Source: Corynebacterium liangguodongii
Lineage (GTDB): Bacteria; Actinomycetota; Actinomycetes; Mycobacteriales; Mycobacteriaceae
Length of the DNA: 64,000 nt
NCBI RefSeq assembly: GCF_003070865.1
Contig: NZ_CP026948.1
Coordinates: forward strand, 992,001 to 1,056,000
Direction: 5' to 3'
A program made the translations under genes and the position numbers. Every line of letters begins with the position of its first letter. Position 1 is the stretch's first letter. The notes below the pieces were generated by a model. It did not search any database and had not been told where the DNA came from. It worked only from the letters and a program-made list of their open reading frames with translations. Of the stretch, positions 5,894-25,075 are shown piece after piece.

Positions 5894-8185
5894 ATGAGCA
5901 CGACGGTCAGCGGCCGGGGCCCACGCGCCCGCGAGGGAGAGGACCGGTTAGAGAAATCAATCACCCCGGACGGGCAAGAACACATCGTGGGGATCACGCC
6001 CGCCCGCGCCATCGGGACGGCCGAGCGCATCGGCATCGGGTGCGCGGCGGTACTCGCCGCCCTGGGGTGGGCGGCGATCGCGCTCGGGCGCCACGAGGAG
6101 ATCAACGCCGTGTGGCTCGTCTGCGCCGCGGTGGGCTCCTACGTAATCGGGTTCACCCTCTACGCCAGGCTTATCGAATACAAGGTGGTCAAGCCCCGCA
6201 GCACCCGCGCCACCCCGGCGGAGTACGTTGACGACGGGGCCGATTTTGTGCCCACGGACCGCCGCGTGCTCTTTGGGCACCACTTCGCCGCCATCGCCGG
6301 CGCCGGGCCCCTCGTTGGACCCGTGATGGCGGCGCAGATGGGCTACCTCCCCGGCACGCTGTGGATCATCCTCGGGGTGATCTTCGCCGGCGCGGTCCAG
6401 GACTACCTCGTGTTGTGGATCTCGACACGCCGCCGCGGCCGCTCGCTGGGCCAGATGATTACCGACGAGGTCGGCCGCGTCGGCGGCGCCGCGGGCATTA
6501 TCGCCACGATGACGATCATGGTGATCCTCATCGCGGTGCTCGGCCTCGTCGTGGTGGGCGCGATGGCCGAATCGCCCTGGAGCGTGTTCTCGCTGGCGAT
6601 GACGATCCCAATTGCCGTGTTTATGGGGTGCTATTCGCGGTTTGTGCGCCCCGGTCGGGTGGTCGAGGTCTCCGCGATCGGCGTGGTGCTGCTGCTTGCA
6701 GCGATCATCGGGGGCGGCTTCGTTGCCGATACCGCGTGGGGTGCCCAGGCTTTCACCCTGTCGAAGACGACCCTGGCCGTCGCGCTCGTGGTCTACGGTA
6801 TCGTCGCCGCGGTCCTGCCGGTCTGGCTCCTGCTCGCTCCGCGTGACTACCTCTCGACGTTTATGAAGATCGGCGTCGTCGTGCTGCTTGCCGTGGCGAT
6901 CCTCTTCGTCCGCCCGACGGTGCAGATGCCGGCCGTGACCAGCTTCGCGCTGGAGGGCAACGGCCCAGTCTTCGCCGGTTCGCTCTTCCCGTTCCTCTTT
7001 ATCACGATTGCCTGCGGGGCGCTCTCGGGCTTTCACGCGTTGATCTCCTCCGGGACGACGCCGAAGCTGATCGAGAAAGAGTCGCACATGCGCGCCATCG
7101 GCTACGGCTCGATGCTGATGGAATCCTTCGTCGCCGTCATGGCGATGATCACGGCGGTCATCATCGACCGGCACATGTATTTTGCGATCAACGCTCCGGC
7201 GGGGCTGACAAAGGGGACGGAGGAAGGCGCTGCCCAGTTCGTCGCCACGCTGGGCCTGCCCGGGGATCCCGTCACCGCAGGCGAGCTCGCCGAGACCGCG
7301 AGCGCGATTGGGGAGCCGACCATCGTCTCGCGTACCGGCGGCGCGCCGACGTTTTCCCTGGGCATGTCGGAGATCATGACAGACGTGTTTGGCAACCCGG
7401 CGCTGCAGGCGTTTTGGTACCACTTCGCGTTGATGTTCGAGGCCCTGTTCATCCTCACGACCGTCGACGCCGGTACCCGCGTCGCCCGGTTTATGATGTC
7501 GGATTCCCTGGGCCACATCCCCGGCCTCGGGCGGTTCAAGGATCCATCGTGGAGGCTCGGCTCGTGGATCTCCACCCTGATCGTCTGCGCAGCGTGGGGC
7601 CTCATCCTCGTCATGGGCGTGACGGACCCACTGGGCGGAATCAACGTGCTCTTCCCGCTCTTCGGCATTGCCAACCAGCTCCTCGCCGCCATTGCTTTGA
7701 CGCTGGTGACCGTCGTGGTGGTGAAGAAGGGGCTCTACGCCTGGGTGTGGGTGCCCGCGGTGCCGCTCGTATTCGACCTCGTGGTCACCCTGACGGCGAG
7801 CTGGCAGAAAATCTTCCATTCCGACCCGGCGATCGGCTACTTTGCCCAAAACGCCCGCTTCCGCCAGGCCCGCGAGCAGGGGTTGAGCGAGTTCGGCAGC
7901 GCGAAGAGCCCCGAGGCGATTGACGCGGTGATCCGCAACACCTACATCCAAGGTGGCCTCTCGATCCTCTTCGCGGTCCTCGTCATCGCGGTGGTGGTAG
8001 CCTCCATTGTCACCATCGTCAAGGCGGTGCGGGCGCGCCGGGTGGGCCGGCCGCTGGCGTTGAGCGAGGAGCCCGATCGCCCCTCGACGTGGTTCATCCC
8101 GCGCGGCATGGTGGCCAGCGCGGAGGAGCGCGAACTCGCGCGCGTGCTCGGCGGGGCGCGCGCGGGAGCGAAGGGAGAATCCTAG
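5894..8185 (+). CDS. cstA: CstA family carbon-starvation / pyruvate transporter
   Basis: 763 residues from the second of two adjacent ATG codons, chosen because GGAAAGGA ends 5 bases upstream; the first ATG at 5891 is too close to it. It is a polytopic inner-membrane protein of the CstA family, with about 16 or more hydrophobic segments. Recognisable family stretches are FGHHFAAIAGAGPLVGPVMA near 130-150, the GALSGFHALISSGTTPK region, and TTVDAGTRVARFM further on. CstA-type proteins import pyruvate (and in some bacteria peptides) during carbon limitation. The tiny YbdD gene follows after one base, a pairing conserved for this family. A TATAAG element near 5845 could be the promoter -10. The C-terminal 60 residues are charged and cytoplasmic. 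Confidence 0.93.
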   Translation: MSTTVSGRGPRAREGEDRLEKSITPDGQEHIVGITPARAIGTAERIGIGCAAVLAALGWAAIALGRHEEINAVWLVCAAVGSYVIGFTLYARLIEYKVVKPRSTRATPAEYVDDGADFVPTDRRVLFGHHFAAIAGAGPLVGPVMAAQMGYLPGTLWIILGVIFAGAVQDYLVLWISTRRRGRSLGQMITDEVGRVGGAAGIIATMTIMVILIAVLGLVVVGAMAESPWSVFSLAMTIPIAVFMGCYSRFVRPGRVVEVSAIGVVLLLAAIIGGGFVADTAWGAQAFTLSKTTLAVALVVYGIVAAVLPVWLLLAPRDYLSTFMKIGVVVLLAVAILFVRPTVQMPAVTSFALEGNGPVFAGSLFPFLFITIACGALSGFHALISSGTTPKLIEKESHMRAIGYGSMLMESFVAVMAMITAVIIDRHMYFAINAPAGLTKGTEEGAAQFVATLGLPGDPVTAGELAETASAIGEPTIVSRTGGAPTFSLGMSEIMTDVFGNPALQAFWYHFALMFEALFILTTVDAGTRVARFMMSDSLGHIPGLGRFKDPSWRLGSWISTLIVCAAWGLILVMGVTDPLGGINVLFPLFGIANQLLAAIALTLVTVVVVKKGLYAWVWVPAVPLVFDLVVTLTASWQKIFHSDPAIGYFAQNARFRQAREQGLSEFGSAKSPEAIDAVIRNTYIQGGLSILFAVLVIAVVVASIVTIVKAVRARRVGRPLALSEEPDRPSTWFIPRGMVASAEERELARVLGGARAGAKGES

Positions 8186-19722: not shown

Positions 19723-20292
19723 ATGGGACACCTGAGGAAGGGGCGCTTTGCCGCCGTGCTAGGGGCGGGCTTGCTCATGATGGGGGCAGAGACCGCGGTG
19801 ATGGCGCAAACGGGCCTGACTGCAAACATCGCGCTATCGAACGTGATCTTTACCCAGACGGTTGGTTCGATTAAGGGGCAAGAGTTCGATCTCTTCGTTG
19901 ATGCTGAGCCCATGCAGAACGGAAACCTAGGGGTCTCACGCCTCCACATCAGCGAAGCGATGATTGCAGATCTGTGTATGTCCGCTCCCATCGACCTTCC
20001 AGGAATCGGTCCGAAGAAGTTCCAGATGCTCGTGCCGGGGGAGTCGACCACCGCAAGCAACCTGGTCATTGGCGCCAAAGACCTGGCAGGTGAGATGACG
20101 ATGATCAACCCGCACATCGGTATCGACGCCCAACAACTCAGCGACAAAGCACTGCCTGGCGCTTTCGGGCTCAACGCCGAAAAATTAGAGGCAATCAACC
20201 AGACCATCCACGCCTCTTCGATTTCTGCGGACAGTCTAACTGCGCGGGGCGGCGTTATTACGGTTGAGGATGTCGACAATGCACAGTGCTAG
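19723..20292 (+). CDS. DUF6230 family secreted protein
   Basis: 189 residues. The N-terminus is positive then hydrophobic (GRFAAVLGAGLLMMGAETAVMA), a signal peptide or membrane anchor. The rest is a beta-rich domain with no charge clusters: LTANIALSNVIFTQTVG, FDLFVDAEPMQ and repeated ASNL/ADSL segments. The order with the next gene matches the actinobacterial pair DUF6230-DUF6114. A strong ribosome binding site (GGGAGG) lies 7 bases upstream of the ATG. The stop lies within the coding region of the next gene. The function is undescribed as far as I know; a role at the cell surface is inferred from the signal. Confidence 0.7.
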   Translation: MGHLRKGRFAAVLGAGLLMMGAETAVMAQTGLTANIALSNVIFTQTVGSIKGQEFDLFVDAEPMQNGNLGVSRLHISEAMIADLCMSAPIDLPGIGPKKFQMLVPGESTTASNLVIGAKDLAGEMTMINPHIGIDAQQLSDKALPGAFGLNAEKLEAINQTIHASSISADSLTARGGVITVEDVDNAQC

Positions 20293-20683
20293 TAGATTTC
20301 GCCGCTGGGCTTCCCACCGTCCTTTTGTCGCGGGTTTGCTCATGGTCATCTCCGGCCTGGTTGTCCTGACCCCGGCCTACCTCTCCTTCGAAATGTCCAA
20401 CATCCAGGTCCACCTGTCGACGATGTCCGGGGTCTCTACGCTGCTTATTGGTGCGCTGCTTCTGTGTTGCGGGGCGATGGTGTGGTTTCAAAGCGAGGGC
20501 CGGCTCCTGGCCGGCATTGCGGCAATGATTCTCGCTGTCGTGGCTATCCCGACGTCGAACTTCGGTGGATTTTTCGTCGGCTCACTGTGCGCCTTGATCG
20601 GCGGTGCGCTGTCGTTGGCGTGGGCGCCCGGGCCGCGGCCGGACGGGAACAAGAGGGCACGCCGGGACGGGGAGGAATCTTGA
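20279..20683 (+). CDS. DUF6114 family membrane protein
   Basis: 134 residues with four hydrophobic segments (about 17-37, 47-65, 74-88 and 92-112) and a basic C-terminal tail. It overlaps the DUF6230 gene by 14 bases. The start is the ATG with GAGGA 7 bases upstream; an ATG at 20270 is an alternative. The small four-helix architecture and its place after DUF6230 match DUF6114 proteins. Its own stop overlaps the next start by TTGA. The function is unknown; translational coupling implies that the three products act together in the membrane. Confidence 0.68.
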   Translation: MHSASRFRRWASHRPFVAGLLMVISGLVVLTPAYLSFEMSNIQVHLSTMSGVSTLLIGALLLCCGAMVWFQSEGRLLAGIAAMILAVVAIPTSNFGGFFVGSLCALIGGALSLAWAPGPRPDGNKRARRDGEES

Positions 20684-21390
20684 TTCGTCGGGGCGGGCTC
20701 GCAGCGCTAGCTGGTATCGTGGCGGTCGGTATTCTTGCGCCCGCGTCGACGTCCGCGCTTATGCCGCGGGAATCCCCGCTCGAGCAGCTCATGTCTGTTC
20801 CTGCACTTCCCGCACCCCCCGTTCCACTCGGAACACCCGCGCCTCCCGGACAGCTCACGCTCCCGCCCATCGCTGGGCTCGACTTTGCCCCTCCAGAGCC
20901 GATTGCGGGTATGGGCACGCCTTCGGGGACGACGTATACCGTGCAGGCGGACTCCACCGCACTCACGGGTGGCGTCAAGCTCTCCTACGTCAACATCGAG
21001 ACAGCTCAGGGGCCACGCTCCGCGATCCGGATCGACGCCGACAAGGTGGTTCTGGACAACCTTCGGGTGCGCTTTCCCAGCAGCGTTGCCGGCGTCCCAG
21101 ACGAGTGGCAGCGCTCGGGACCCGGAGTGAAGACGACTCTGAGCGGCCACTTCCACATCATCGTCAAAGAAATGACGGTGACCCCGCAGATCGCCGGGGT
21201 AGCGCTGCCGGCGCCGATCACCATTGACGCGGACATGGCTACCGAGGACATCGCGAACAGGCTCAAGCAAGTTGGAGCCGGCATGCCCGACGCGATATCA
21301 GAGCACGTGGTGATGCTCAACGGTCAGATGGAGGCGTACTACATTTCCGCGGATCGGTTCACGGGGGAGGCCCTCACCATCGGCCAGTAA
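20680..21390 (+). CDS. Secreted protein, third gene of the DUF6230/DUF6114 operon
   Basis: 236 residues from a TTG that overlaps the previous stop codon (TTGA), preceded closely by GGAGGA. A signal peptide spans about 1-28 (LAGIVAVGILAPASTSA). A Pro-rich linker follows (residues 30-75), then a domain of about 150 residues with TYTVQADSTALTGGVKLSYVNIET, several short strands and VKEMTVTPQIAGVALPAPITID. Its beta-rich pattern and the theme of short repeated strands resemble the DUF6230 protein two genes upstream, so the two may be distant relatives. No catalytic motif is visible. The same transcript probably ends here, since the next gene has its own promoter. Confidence 0.65.
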   Translation: MIRRGGLAALAGIVAVGILAPASTSALMPRESPLEQLMSVPALPAPPVPLGTPAPPGQLTLPPIAGLDFAPPEPIAGMGTPSGTTYTVQADSTALTGGVKLSYVNIETAQGPRSAIRIDADKVVLDNLRVRFPSSVAGVPDEWQRSGPGVKTTLSGHFHIIVKEMTVTPQIAGVALPAPITIDADMATEDIANRLKQVGAGMPDAISEHVVMLNGQMEAYYISADRFTGEALTIGQ

Positions 21391-21411: not shown

Positions 21412-21417
21412 TAAGAT
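21412..21417 (+). promoter_or_regulatory. -10 element of the PLP-enzyme operon
   Basis: TAAGAT followed by 7 bases and the ATG at 21425, without a Shine-Dalgarno sequence: a leaderless-type promoter that separates this operon from the DUF6230 operon. Confidence 0.6.
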
Positions 21418-21424
21418 TGTTGTT

Positions 21425-22366
21425 ATGCTCAGCGATCCACGACCGGACCTTCTCGCCGCGGTCGGCCACACACCGCTCGTCGAACTCGCCGTCTCGCCCC
21501 GCGCCCGGGCGTGGGCTAAGCTCGAATCCTTCAACCCCTCGGGCAGCGCCAAAGACCGCACGGCCCGGGCGATGGTACGTGACGCCTACGAGAAGGGGAT
21601 CCTCGGGCCTGGCACGATTGTCGTCGAATCCAGCTCCGGCAACCTCGGGGTGGCGCTGGCGAGGGAGGCCTTGATCGGGGGGTGGAGCTTCCACTGTGTT
21701 GTCGATACGCGCACAAACGCCCAGACGCTGGCACACATGCGCGCGCTCGGCGCGATACTCCACGAGGTCACCGCCCCCGACCCGGAGACCGGAGACTGGC
21801 TCGTGGCGCGCCGGGCCGCGGTGGACGAGCTCGTCGCCGAGCTCGGGGCCATAACCCTCGACCAATACTCCAACCGGGCGGCGATTACGGCGCATAGCGA
21901 GGGCACGATGTGCGAGATTATCGACGCCCTCGGGCACGCTCCGGACTTCATCGTCGCGGCGGTGAGCACGACGGGGACTATCGGCGGGTGCGCGCACTTC
22001 GTGCGCAGCCACGGCCTGCCCACCACGGTGGTCGCGATCGATGCTGAAGGCTCCGTGCTCTTCGGCGGCACCCGCGGGAGCCGGATCCTGCCCGGCTACG
22101 GCGCCGGTGTGGTCACCGAACTCTCCACCCACGTCGAGCCCGACAGCGTGATCCGCGTGAGCGCGGGCGATGCCGTGCGCGCCGCCCGTACCATGGCGCG
22201 CGCCTCGGGGTTTTTACCGGGGGCCTCCGGCGGGGCGGTTGCCCATGGCGTCGATACGCTTGCTGCGCGGCACCCCGGCGCGGAGATCGCCGCGATCTTT
22301 CACGATGACGGCCGCGCCTACCTGGACACGGTCTACAACGACGAATGGGTGGAGGCGAACCTGTAG
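21425..22366 (+). CDS. Cysteine synthase-fold PLP enzyme (SbnA-like)
   Basis: 313 residues of fold type II. The PLP lysine is Lys43 in FNPSGSAKDRTA, and the phosphate-binding loops are ESSSGNLGVALA near residue 68 and TTGTIGG near 184. The substrate loop SSSGN differs from the TSGNTG of ordinary cysteine synthases and is shared, as I recall, with 2,3-diaminopropionate-pathway enzymes such as SbnA and with rhizobial Y4xP-type proteins. The C-terminal PGASGGAVAHG matches the family's PLP-ring contact region (SxGA variant). The next gene begins directly after this stop codon, so the two products belong to one pathway. Replacement of the beta-substituent of an activated serine by an amino nucleophile is the likely reaction; the substrate is not known. 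Confidence 0.78.
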   Translation: MLSDPRPDLLAAVGHTPLVELAVSPRARAWAKLESFNPSGSAKDRTARAMVRDAYEKGILGPGTIVVESSSGNLGVALAREALIGGWSFHCVVDTRTNAQTLAHMRALGAILHEVTAPDPETGDWLVARRAAVDELVAELGAITLDQYSNRAAITAHSEGTMCEIIDALGHAPDFIVAAVSTTGTIGGCAHFVRSHGLPTTVVAIDAEGSVLFGGTRGSRILPGYGAGVVTELSTHVEPDSVIRVSAGDAVRAARTMARASGFLPGASGGAVAHGVDTLAARHPGAEIAAIFHDDGRAYLDTVYNDEWVEANL

Positions 22367-25075
22367 ATGAAAGTTGCCATTATCGGGGCAGGCCCGCGCG
22401 GGCTGTGGGCGTGCGAAGAGCTCATGGGCACAGCGCGCGAGCGCGGCGCATCAATCGAGCTCACCGTTTTCGACACCGCCCCGCGCGGCGCCACGAGCGC
22501 CACCGGCGCGTTCCAGCCCGACCTTCCCGCCCAGTGGCTGCTCAACGTGCCCGCCAGCGCTATTGCCACCCGCCTCGGCAGTTTCGATCAGTGGCGCACG
22601 CCGGGCGGGGATTTCCCGTCGCGCGCGCAGGTTGGGGAGTTCATCGCCGCCTCGTGGCGCGCGGCCCTCTCTCGTGTGCCGCGCGGGTGCGCGCTCGATT
22701 TTCGCCAGCACAGGGTCGAGCGCATCGTGCCGGCGGGCGGTGGGTTGAGGGTCGACGGCACGCTTTTCGACGAAGTGATGATCTGCACCGGCCACGAGAC
22801 CGCCACCCCGGTTCCCGGCGCCATCGCCGCCTACCCGCACACCAACCTCGATGCCCTGGGTCCCTCAGACGTGGTGCTCGTCCGCGGCGCGGCGCTGTCG
22901 TTCATGGACGTGGTGCGCTACTCGGGCGCCAAGACGTTCTTCCCTGTTTCCCGCAGCGGAAGGTTTATGGAGGTCAAGGCCTATCCCGAGGACGGGCCGG
23001 TCGCCACCGCCGCGCTCGAGCGCGCCGGGGCCGAGATTGCCCGAAGCGCCGACCTCGTCGCATTCACCCGCGCCCTCGCCGAGGCCGCGGACGCCGTGCT
23101 CGAGGCAGTCGGCGGGAGCGGGGAGACCCGCCCCGTCATCGAAGGCACCGACTTTAGCGGTGACGCCGTCGCCGAGCTGCGCGCCTCGCTGGCCGGCGCG
23201 CAGGGCCTGCGCCCGTGGACCCCCGCCCAGGCGGTGGGCTACGTGTTTCGCGAGCTCTACCCTCGCGTCATCGAGCGCGCATCCTTTGGCGGGCGAGCCA
23301 GCCTGGGAGGGGAGCGTTTCGACGCGCTCACGCACACCCTCGAGCGCGTCGCCTTCGGCCCTCCCGCGGTAACCGCTCGGGACCTCGTCGCCGCGATCGA
23401 TTCCGGCCGCGTGCGCACCGATGTGCTCGGGCGCGGCGCGGAAGACATCGGTGCGCTCGCCCGCGAGGTCGGAGCCAGCGCTGTCGTCGATTCGGTCACC
23501 GCGCCCCCGGGGGTTCACCCGGATTCGCTCGTCGGCCGCCTCGTCTCAGATGGGCTCGCGCGCACCGAGGCCGGTGCCCTCATCGTCGAGCGCGACGGCA
23601 CCGTCTCCGGGCAGAAGCACCTCGCCGCCGCGGGAAGGATGTGCGAGGGATGGATCCTCGGCCACGACACGCTGCGCCGGGGCCCCGATGATGTCATCCC
23701 TGCCTGGGCGCGGCGCGTCTCCGCGGCGGCGGCCCCGAGCGGGGTGCACGGCATCCCGCCTCTGACCGCGCGCACCGAGGCGTGGGCGGATGGCCTCCTC
23801 GCCGATGCGCAGGCGTGCCACAACCTCATCGAGGACCATTCCAGCCCGGTCAACGTCCTCAACCCGGAGCCGATGGAGCGCAACATCACCCAGCTCGTCG
23901 ACGCCGCGCGCGGCCACGGCGTCGAGCTCAAGGTGTTCTTCGCCCGCAAGGCCAACAAGGCCTTAGCCTTCGTCGATGCGGCGCGCGATGCGGGGCACGG
24001 GGTGGACGTGGCCAGCGTCGGCGAGCTCACCCAGGTGCTCGGCCGGGGAGTGAAGGGCAGCGATACCATCGTCACCGCCGCGGTGAAGACCGACGGGTTG
24101 CTGCGCCTGGCCATTGCACACGGCGCCGTCATCTCGGCCGATAGCCGCGACGAGCTCGACCGCATCGCAGCCATCGCCGAGGAACTGGGGGAGCTCGCCC
24201 TCGTCGCACCGCGCCTCGCACCCGACCCTGAGGTGATGCCGCCGACCCGCTTCGGCGAGCGCCGTGAGGCGTGGGCCGAGCACATCGGCGCACCCGGGAG
24301 GTGGGTGCGCATCGTCGGGGTGCACGCGCATCTCCACGGCTACGCGGCACGGGACCGCAGACACGCGCTGCGCGAATGCATGGAGCTTGTGGACGCGCTT
24401 GCGCGGAAAGGCCACGCGCTAGAGTTCATCGACATCGGCGGCGGGGTGCCCATGAGCTACATCGACAGCGCCGCGCAGTGGGAGGGCTACCGCGATGCGA
24501 TCGACGCCCAGCGCGCCGGATACGCCGAGCCCTTTACGTGGAAGGCCGACCCGCTGACCAACACCTACCCCTACCACCAGCGCCCCACCCGGGGGCGGTG
24601 GCTCGACGAGGTCCTCGCAGGCGATATCGCCGCGGGCCTGCGGCGGCGCGGGCTGCGGCTCCACCTCGAGCCGGGCCGCTCGCTTCTCGACGGCTGCGGG
24701 CTCATCCTCGCCGCCGTTGCCTTCGTGAAGCAGCGTAGCGACGGCCTGCCCCTCGTCGGCCTGCACATGAACCGCACCCAGTGCCGTACCACCTCGGATG
24801 ACTATCTCGTCGACCCGATCCTGGTCAAGCGCACCGACCCCAGCGAGGAGATCGAAGCCTTCCTCGTGGGGGCCTACTGCATCGAAGACGAGGTGATCCT
24901 GCGCCGCCGCGTGCGCTTCCCCGCGGGAGTGAGCGCAGGGGACATCATCGCCATCCCGAACACCGCCGGCTACTTCATGCACATCCTCGAATCCGCCTCG
25001 CACCAGATCCCGCTCGCGAAAAACGTCGTGTGGCCGGGCGGTGCCCTCGACCCGATCGACGCGCCCGGCGCCTAG
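22367..25075 (+). CDS. Fusion of FAD/NAD(P)-binding domain and fold-type III PLP decarboxylase
   Basis: 902 residues in one open frame. Residues 1 to about 470 are an FAD/NAD(P)-binding domain (KVAIIGAGPRGLWACEEL at the N-terminus, then a DEVMICTGHETATPVPG segment). Residues about 485-902 are a group IV decarboxylase of the LysA/ornithine decarboxylase fold: VFFARKANKALAF with the PLP lysine near 528, EFIDIGGGVPM, HLEPGRSLLDG near 766-776, and a C-terminal AYCIEDEVILRRRV and IPNTAGYFMHILES with the Cys/Tyr dimer residues. The ATG touches the preceding stop. The decarboxylase half resembles proteins labelled Y4yA-like. The FAD half resembles amino-acid-modifying flavoproteins; no thioredoxin motif is seen. 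The stop overlaps that of cydC on the other strand by 4 bases. The function is unknown. Confidence 0.8.
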   Translation: MKVAIIGAGPRGLWACEELMGTARERGASIELTVFDTAPRGATSATGAFQPDLPAQWLLNVPASAIATRLGSFDQWRTPGGDFPSRAQVGEFIAASWRAALSRVPRGCALDFRQHRVERIVPAGGGLRVDGTLFDEVMICTGHETATPVPGAIAAYPHTNLDALGPSDVVLVRGAALSFMDVVRYSGAKTFFPVSRSGRFMEVKAYPEDGPVATAALERAGAEIARSADLVAFTRALAEAADAVLEAVGGSGETRPVIEGTDFSGDAVAELRASLAGAQGLRPWTPAQAVGYVFRELYPRVIERASFGGRASLGGERFDALTHTLERVAFGPPAVTARDLVAAIDSGRVRTDVLGRGAEDIGALAREVGASAVVDSVTAPPGVHPDSLVGRLVSDGLARTEAGALIVERDGTVSGQKHLAAAGRMCEGWILGHDTLRRGPDDVIPAWARRVSAAAAPSGVHGIPPLTARTEAWADGLLADAQACHNLIEDHSSPVNVLNPEPMERNITQLVDAARGHGVELKVFFARKANKALAFVDAARDAGHGVDVASVGELTQVLGRGVKGSDTIVTAAVKTDGLLRLAIAHGAVISADSRDELDRIAAIAEELGELALVAPRLAPDPEVMPPTRFGERREAWAEHIGAPGRWVRIVGVHAHLHGYAARDRRHALRECMELVDALARKGHALEFIDIGGGVPMSYIDSAAQWEGYRDAIDAQRAGYAEPFTWKADPLTNTYPYHQRPTRGRWLDEVLAGDIAAGLRRRGLRLHLEPGRSLLDGCGLILAAVAFVKQRSDGLPLVGLHMNRTQCRTTSDDYLVDPILVKRTDPSEEIEAFLVGAYCIEDEVILRRRVRFPAGVSAGDIIAIPNTAGYFMHILESASHQIPLAKNVVWPGGALDPIDAPGA

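Follow-up and report, generated by a model that had tools for sequence, protein, structure and literature searches.

A conserved cassette of an SbnA-type enzyme, a flavin monooxygenase relative and a Y4yA-type decarboxylase in Corynebacterium and beyond: a candidate variant of SbnA-type chemistry

We analyzed a stretch of 64,000 nucleotides of the Corynebacterium liangguodongii genome (GCF_003070865.1, contig NZ_CP026948.1, forward-strand positions 992,001 to 1,056,000), hereafter called the window, and in it a pair of adjoining genes: gene A, for an SbnA-type enzyme, and gene B, for a flavin enzyme fused to a decarboxylase. Gene A (21425-22366) encodes 313 amino acids (aa) and gene B (22367-25075) encodes 902 aa. 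The TAG stop of gene A directly abuts the ATG of gene B with zero gap, so that the gapless pair of an SbnA-like gene and a 902-residue fusion described in the initial annotation stands. The genome consists of one contig of 2.36 Mb and holds a single match to gene B. The features of the locus are as follows.

21412..21417, + strand: -10-like box TAAGAT, 7 nt 5' of the gene A ATG; leaderless promoter predicted from sequence
21425..22366, + strand: gene A, SbnA-type beta-replacement enzyme using pyridoxal phosphate (PLP), O-phosphoserine use predicted; PLP Lys43, Arg129/Tyr148/Ser181
22367..23731, + strand: N-terminal half of gene B (aa 1-455), predicted flavin monooxygenase related to CreE/FzmM; Asn60 equivalent to catalytic Asn62
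23762..25075, + strand: C-terminal half of gene B (about aa 466-902), fold-type III PLP decarboxylase of the Y4yA type; Lys528, EPGR 768-771, Cys838

Gene A encodes a PALP enzyme (PF00291, E 1.6e-48) whose SSSGN loop, already pointed out in the initial annotation, begins at residue 69. Among solved structures, it came closest to SbnA of Staphylococcus aureus (5d84, E 7.8e-53); an O-acetylserine sulfhydrylase followed as the next type of enzyme (E 5.3e-41). SbnA converts O-phosphoserine and glutamate to ACEGA, and the passage of PMC12414870 that deals with its active site credits Arg132, Tyr152, and Ser185 with selective O-phosphoserine binding. In a pairwise alignment, these residues corresponded to Arg129, Tyr148, and Ser181 of gene A, and the Arg, Tyr, and Ser were kept in 61, 60, and 59, respectively, of 61 gene A loci (window included), the exceptions being L042 and the M. 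avium plasmid locus L064. The window genome encodes three further PF00291 proteins. The one that tblastn aligned to gene A (L078, 35%) has Val, Phe, and Gly at the three positions and appears to be CysK-like. The conserved residues bear out the proposed kinship with SbnA and argue strongly for O-phosphoserine as the first substrate.

The C-terminal half of gene B contains a PF02784 domain (519-720). The intact lysine near position 528 and the EPGR motif that had been reported were both present (Lys528 and 768-771), and among 18 aligned decarboxylase halves, the lysine, the Arg of EPGR, and Cys838 were each found in 18/18 and the Glu of EPGR in 17/18. The half thus has the PLP lysine, the EPGR motif, the active-site cysteine, and the fold of a fold-type III PLP decarboxylase. 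An AlphaFold2 model of the fused 902-aa protein had a mean predicted local distance difference test (pLDDT) score of 92.0 and a predicted template modeling (pTM) score of 0.90. The rows listed in a fold search of this model with VIA-align 2 were decarboxylases, which makes that search uninformative on the flavin half. The LysA model TIGR01048 gave 115.4 bits, under its cut-off of 297.9, and the enzyme is of the kind annotated as the Y4yA family, in agreement with the earlier comparison.

The N-terminal half contains a PF13454 domain (4-143). A profile built from 31 flavin halves and their homologues matched the L-aspartate N-hydroxylase of Streptomyces sp. V2 in the PDB (8cp2, E 2.9e-55) far ahead of the second match, a flavin-containing monooxygenase (E 1.7e-5). 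Profile positions 2-483 aligned to residues 4-567 of the 8cp2 chain, indicating homology over the whole length, and a Foldseek search with the fused model listed 8cp2 (8.2e-21) among decarboxylases. The initial annotation had described this half as an FAD/NAD(P)-binding domain acting in oxidation; the flavin domain was retained, while the generic oxidation gave way to kinship with aspartate N-hydroxylase. In the part of PMC10404684 that describes it, the 8cp2 enzyme binds flavin adenine dinucleotide (FAD) and NADPH with Asn62 above the flavin, and it has an aspartate site (Arg13, Arg276, Asn413, Arg416, and Arg577) and a sulfate site (Arg266, Arg409, Arg412, Asn413, and Arg416). These residues were mapped through one HMMER profile alignment of low identity and tallied over 40 aligned sequences, 14 of which came from protein searches without known gene context. 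The catalytic Asn62 corresponded to Asn60 (Asn in 40/40), Arg266 to Lys204 (40/40), Arg409 to Arg295 (38/40, with Lys in 2), and Arg13 to Arg11 (29 Arg, 10 Lys, and 1 gap); Arg276 was seemingly not kept, as judged by eye, and Arg577 lies beyond the end of the alignment. The aspartate entry chamber of CreE/FzmM was not found as a set. Since it retains the catalytic core but not the aspartate site, the flavin half would be N-hydroxylase-like by descent but does not warrant the name aspartate N-hydroxylase; it is probably a monooxygenase using NADPH and O2 on an anionic amine other than aspartate.

We then surveyed 242 Corynebacterium genomes, with counts tallied by hand from tables. Gene B (E ≤1e-30) was found in 120, some matches being partial or broken, and gene A (E ≤4.3e-85) in 109, the next genome following at 7.5e-52. 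All 109 also held gene B, and in 107 of them the two genes lay on the same strand, in the correct order, and within 3.5 kb; in G027 the genes were apart, and in G204 they were on different contigs. Extra partial gene B matches were seen about 10 to 15 kb from the first one in G099, G053, G092, G033, and G236; the first match is confined to the flavin half in two of these, G092 and G033.

To cover other groups, one genome per species was scanned (84,980 species) with exact-pattern gene B seeds, so that distant relatives will have been missed. This gave 60 gene B loci from Corynebacterium, Rothia, Propioniciclava, two more actinobacterial assemblies, Planctomycetota, and Verrucomicrobiota. Gene A stood upstream in 57 of them, spanning three phyla, the others being L021 (contig edge), L057 (a remnant), and L060, which carries the flavin half alone (787-2214). 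Gene A and the flavin gene were no more than 194 bp apart in all but L002, where 1.6 kb separates them (6360-8000); this insert carries an antisense open reading frame (ORF), which we take to resemble RtcB. The trio was also present on a Tsukamurella plasmid, where the flavin gene is annotated partly as hypothetical, and on a plasmid of Sulfitobacter, a fourth phylum; outside Actinomycetota, the evidence consists of species-scan loci and plasmid records. Relatives of the flavoenzyme on Rhodovulum and Pseudosulfitobacter plasmids had no adjoining SbnA-like or Y4yA gene. Among the matches listed for 396 sampled Actinomycetota genomes (window genome included, two candidates scored per genome), clear flavin-half entries outside the window genome came from G567 and G576. 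The order SbnA, flavoenzyme, decarboxylase was constant in four phyla while the outer neighbors changed. Free variation of neighbors, which the initial annotation would have taken as a refutation, therefore applies to the surroundings and not to the three enzymes. When the neighbors of some loci were read by eye, no consistent partner gene was seen beside the cassette; neighbor ORF calling was crude, with L010 and L039 mis-called. By sequence and fold, the cassette comprises three enzyme classes in a fixed order with their catalytic residues.

The adjacency of the genes is thus widespread, whereas the fusion is not: outside Corynebacterium and Rothia, flavoenzyme and decarboxylase were separate genes in the loci examined, and some Corynebacterium also carry them separately. 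When 61 decarboxylase halves (29 from fused and 32 from split genes) were placed in a midpoint-rooted tree, in which L064 has a very long branch, the fused/split label required two changes, and Rothia was placed among Corynebacterium rows. As every row outside the Corynebacterium/Rothia group is split, the fusion is probably a derived, later event around Corynebacterium. A single origin may be compatible with the tree, and Rothia probably received the fusion.

The operon had been called leaderless. We examined the gene A start in 45 chosen loci from Corynebacterium, Rothia, and one Mycobacteriaceae assembly (window included), a set with near-identical species and hence not independent. A TANNNT box 5 to 8 nt ahead of an in-frame start was found in 42 of the 45, where shuffling of the upstream stretches predicted 4.0; five loci had a Shine-Dalgarno-like motif. 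These counts support a conserved leaderless start. An inverted repeat across the gene A start (GCATAA...TTATGC), at first read as a regulator site, is regarded as chance because relatives repeat the -10 part and not the second arm, as judged by eye. In the region upstream of the pair (19723-21390), a DUF6230 protein (19723-20292) is followed by an ORF without Pfam match (20464-21390), a relative of which occurs in one other locus, L051.

We found no account of this enzyme trio in the open-access literature listings that were searched. The nearest known sets differ from it in several respects. Compared to SbnA-SbnB-SbnH of S. aureus (staphyloferrin B), there is no SbnB-family protein in the window genome (no PF02423 match at E ≤0.001, while the C. 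glutamicum control gave one) and no adjoining synthetase for nonribosomal peptide synthetase (NRPS)-independent siderophores (NIS); a flavin monooxygenase lies in between, and the decarboxylase profile ranked diaminopimelate decarboxylases above SbnH. Compared to CreE/FzmM of the nitrosuccinate pathway, the flavin half is a whole-length relative with the catalytic Asn but is changed at Asn413 and Arg416 and is fused or adjacent to a decarboxylase, whereas CreE pairs with a CreD-type lyase in the account given in part of PMC11705231. The y4xP-y4yA region of Sinorhizobium fredii, likened here by description, has y4xP, described as a cysteine synthase, and y4yA, is part of a type III secretion locus that also contains y4xM, y4xN, y4xO, and y4yB, and has a role called "enigmatic" in the relevant passage of PMC3973906. 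The Sulfitobacter pontiacus plasmid carries sbnA, an FAD/NAD(P)-binding gene, and Y4yA in the order of the cassette but as three separate genes, the last named Y4yA family PLP-dependent enzyme. On the plasmid pMAH135 of M. avium (L064, 5259-10750), an SbnA-like gene, a PF02423 gene, a Y4yA-type decarboxylase, and a MATE exporter stand in a row; the SbnA-like protein has Gly at the Ser185 position, and the flavoenzyme is absent from this set. Although the pair has no adjoining NIS synthetase, as had been noted, the window genome does have one locus with two PF04183 matches about 650 kb away. This siderophore-type operon (L082, G000:C1:1662000-1681500) encodes a 1131-aa two-domain IucA/IucC synthetase, a substrate-binding protein, two permeases, an ATPase, and an MFS-like transporter, with a YdcZ-type exporter nearby; its gene content resembles that of ciuA-G of C. 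diphtheriae.

Overall, these data point to a conserved three-enzyme pathway that would be a variant of SbnA-type chemistry with a predicted product. Whether the enzymes suffice, in three steps and on their own, for a small diamine-type molecule that is N-oxygenated and decarboxylated is a close call, and we place this reading just short of even. In such a route, the SbnA-type enzyme would drop the phosphate of O-phosphoserine and couple the carbon to the amine of an amino acid; L-glutamate is, with moderate confidence, the predicted partner by homology, giving ACEGA or a close analogue. The flavin half would then add oxygen to the amine nitrogen of the anionic adduct, its presumed substrate, with the use of NADPH and O2, thereby occupying the place of SbnB in diaminopropionate pathways. 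Because it sits in this place, where pMAH135 has PF02423 instead, we believe that the flavoenzyme decides what becomes of the SbnA adduct, and we hold N-oxygenation of that adduct with moderate confidence. Finally, the Y4yA-type PLP decarboxylase would take the carboxyl beside the serine-derived primary amine of its putative substrate, since by chemical reasoning a PLP decarboxylase requires a primary amine there. That the flavin step precedes decarboxylation is weakly suggested by gene order and conserved basic residues. No NRPS, NIS synthetase, or dedicated exporter beside the genes would be needed for the product, and the Corynebacterium fusion would pass an unstable N-oxygenated intermediate between active sites. 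Such chemistry has precedents: pairs of a decarboxylase and an N-hydroxylase provide N-hydroxydiamines for siderophores, as outlined in part of PMC7347517, and in alanosine, diaminopropionate meets nitrogen oxidation, as outlined in part of PMC11705231.

The place of the flavoenzyme lends itself to a different reading, in which it substitutes for SbnB and converts ACEGA to L-diaminopropionate and 2-oxoglutarate, the decarboxylase then yielding ethylenediamine and the product having no N-O bond. SbnA and SbnB relatives are consistently adjacent or fused according to the relevant section of PMC3179956, the flavoenzyme stands in that very place here, the window genome is without a PF02423 protein, and in the variant on the M. 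avium plasmid, PF02423 replaces the flavoenzyme. The closest solved relative, however, is an N-hydroxylase, neither an oxidase nor a dehydrogenase, and its catalytic Asn is invariant, so that we consider this substitution unlikely, if by no means far-fetched. We also looked for SbnB replacement in the presence and absence of PF02423, which occurs in 170 of the 242 genomes (90/120 with gene B and 80/122 without it, P = 0.12); there was no depletion with gene B, and the 30 of 109 cassette genomes without PF02423 allow a weak statement only. The flavin and decarboxylase steps might run the other way round, with the decarboxylase acting first and the flavoenzyme hydroxylating the resulting diamine to an N-hydroxydiamine, as in the order that PMC7347517 gives, in the part concerned, for desferrioxamine. 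We regard this as improbable: the invariant or nearly invariant Arg86, Arg196, Lys204, Arg295, and Arg424 would suit a carboxylate substrate better, although they may bind cofactors, no common partner gene family lies beside the cassette, and a NIS synthetase is missing from 98 of the 109 genomes with the cassette.

That figure bears equally on the idea that the cassette feeds a precursor to a NIS siderophore made elsewhere in the genome, for which the two-domain NIS protein and siderophore transport genes of the window genome would speak. An IucA/IucC protein was found in 34 of the 242 genomes, 11 of which, including the window genome, have the cassette. Genes A and B together were present in 11/34 NIS genomes and 98/208 others (odds ratio, 0.54; P = 0.14), and gene B alone as a marker was present in 11/34 and 109/208 (odds ratio, 0.43; P = 0.041); with no positive association, co-occurrence does not support this idea. 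In addition, the NIS operon of the window genome needs no cassette to explain it, given its likeness to the ciu cluster, whose siderophore has lysine as its diamine in the passage of PMC3326035 that describes it. We therefore give the feeder role hardly any credence. Ordinary amino acid metabolism, with cysteine synthase-like and lysA-like enzymes and no joint pathway, would fit generic database names such as diaminopimelate decarboxylase. This seems scarcely less doubtful, since the order is constant over phyla, gene A never occurs without gene B in the 109 genomes, two of the three enzymes are fused, the LysA score falls short of its cut-off, and the O-phosphoserine residues are absent from the CysK-like paralogue.

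Several observations weigh against the proposed N-oxygenating route itself. The best NCBIfam model for gene A was SbnA (TIGR03945), but its 299.2 bits lie below the cut-off of 349.95; the cut-off was passed by the cassette relatives L049 (374.8) and L063 (358.0) and missed by L022 (338.5). As gene A falls under it, yet cassette members from Pelagicoccus and Sulfitobacter lie above it, an SbnA-type enzyme that has diverged is the best description of gene A. Glutamate as the partner has SbnA homology as its sole basis. In the flavin half, Arg412 of the 8cp2 sulfate site is replaced by Tyr in 39/40, and in the aspartate site, Asn413 is replaced by Pro in 31/40 and Arg416 by Val or Ile in 36/40; with these changes, N-oxygenation is predicted from membership of the group, and UniRef names across the wider flavin family include the urate hydroxylase HpyO. 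At the gene A cut-off given above, gene B occurred without gene A in 11 Corynebacterium genomes, as the flavin half only in six (G002, G033, G092, G095, G154, and G187); the other five are G081, G083, G125, G194, and G202. These lone flavin halves, like that of L060, are perhaps decaying copies or reflect independent use of the flavoenzyme. A PF02423 protein was encoded elsewhere in 79 of the 109 cassette genomes. Finally, the largest non-cassette neighbor cluster was common to 16 of 65 sources, and as no other neighbor family exceeded this, no exporter or regulator backs a secreted product.

Returning to the route through N-oxygenation, and with somewhat more doubt than for the three steps as such, we tentatively propose an SbnB-free branch of amino acid chemistry starting from phosphoserine, in which a CreE-group monooxygenase would N-oxygenate an SbnA-type adduct that is also decarboxylated, so that three enzymes alone would give a metal-binding or bioactive N-oxygenated small molecule, in nearly half of the examined Corynebacterium species, in Planctomycetota and Verrucomicrobiota, and in Sulfitobacter. 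If true, 109 of 242 genomes of Corynebacterium, a genus with many human-associated species, would contain a compact route, encoded by a defined gene set for two proteins, to a molecule for which our searches found no name; there would be a second way of processing SbnA-type adducts, and the aspartate N-hydroxylase group would be extended to a new substrate.

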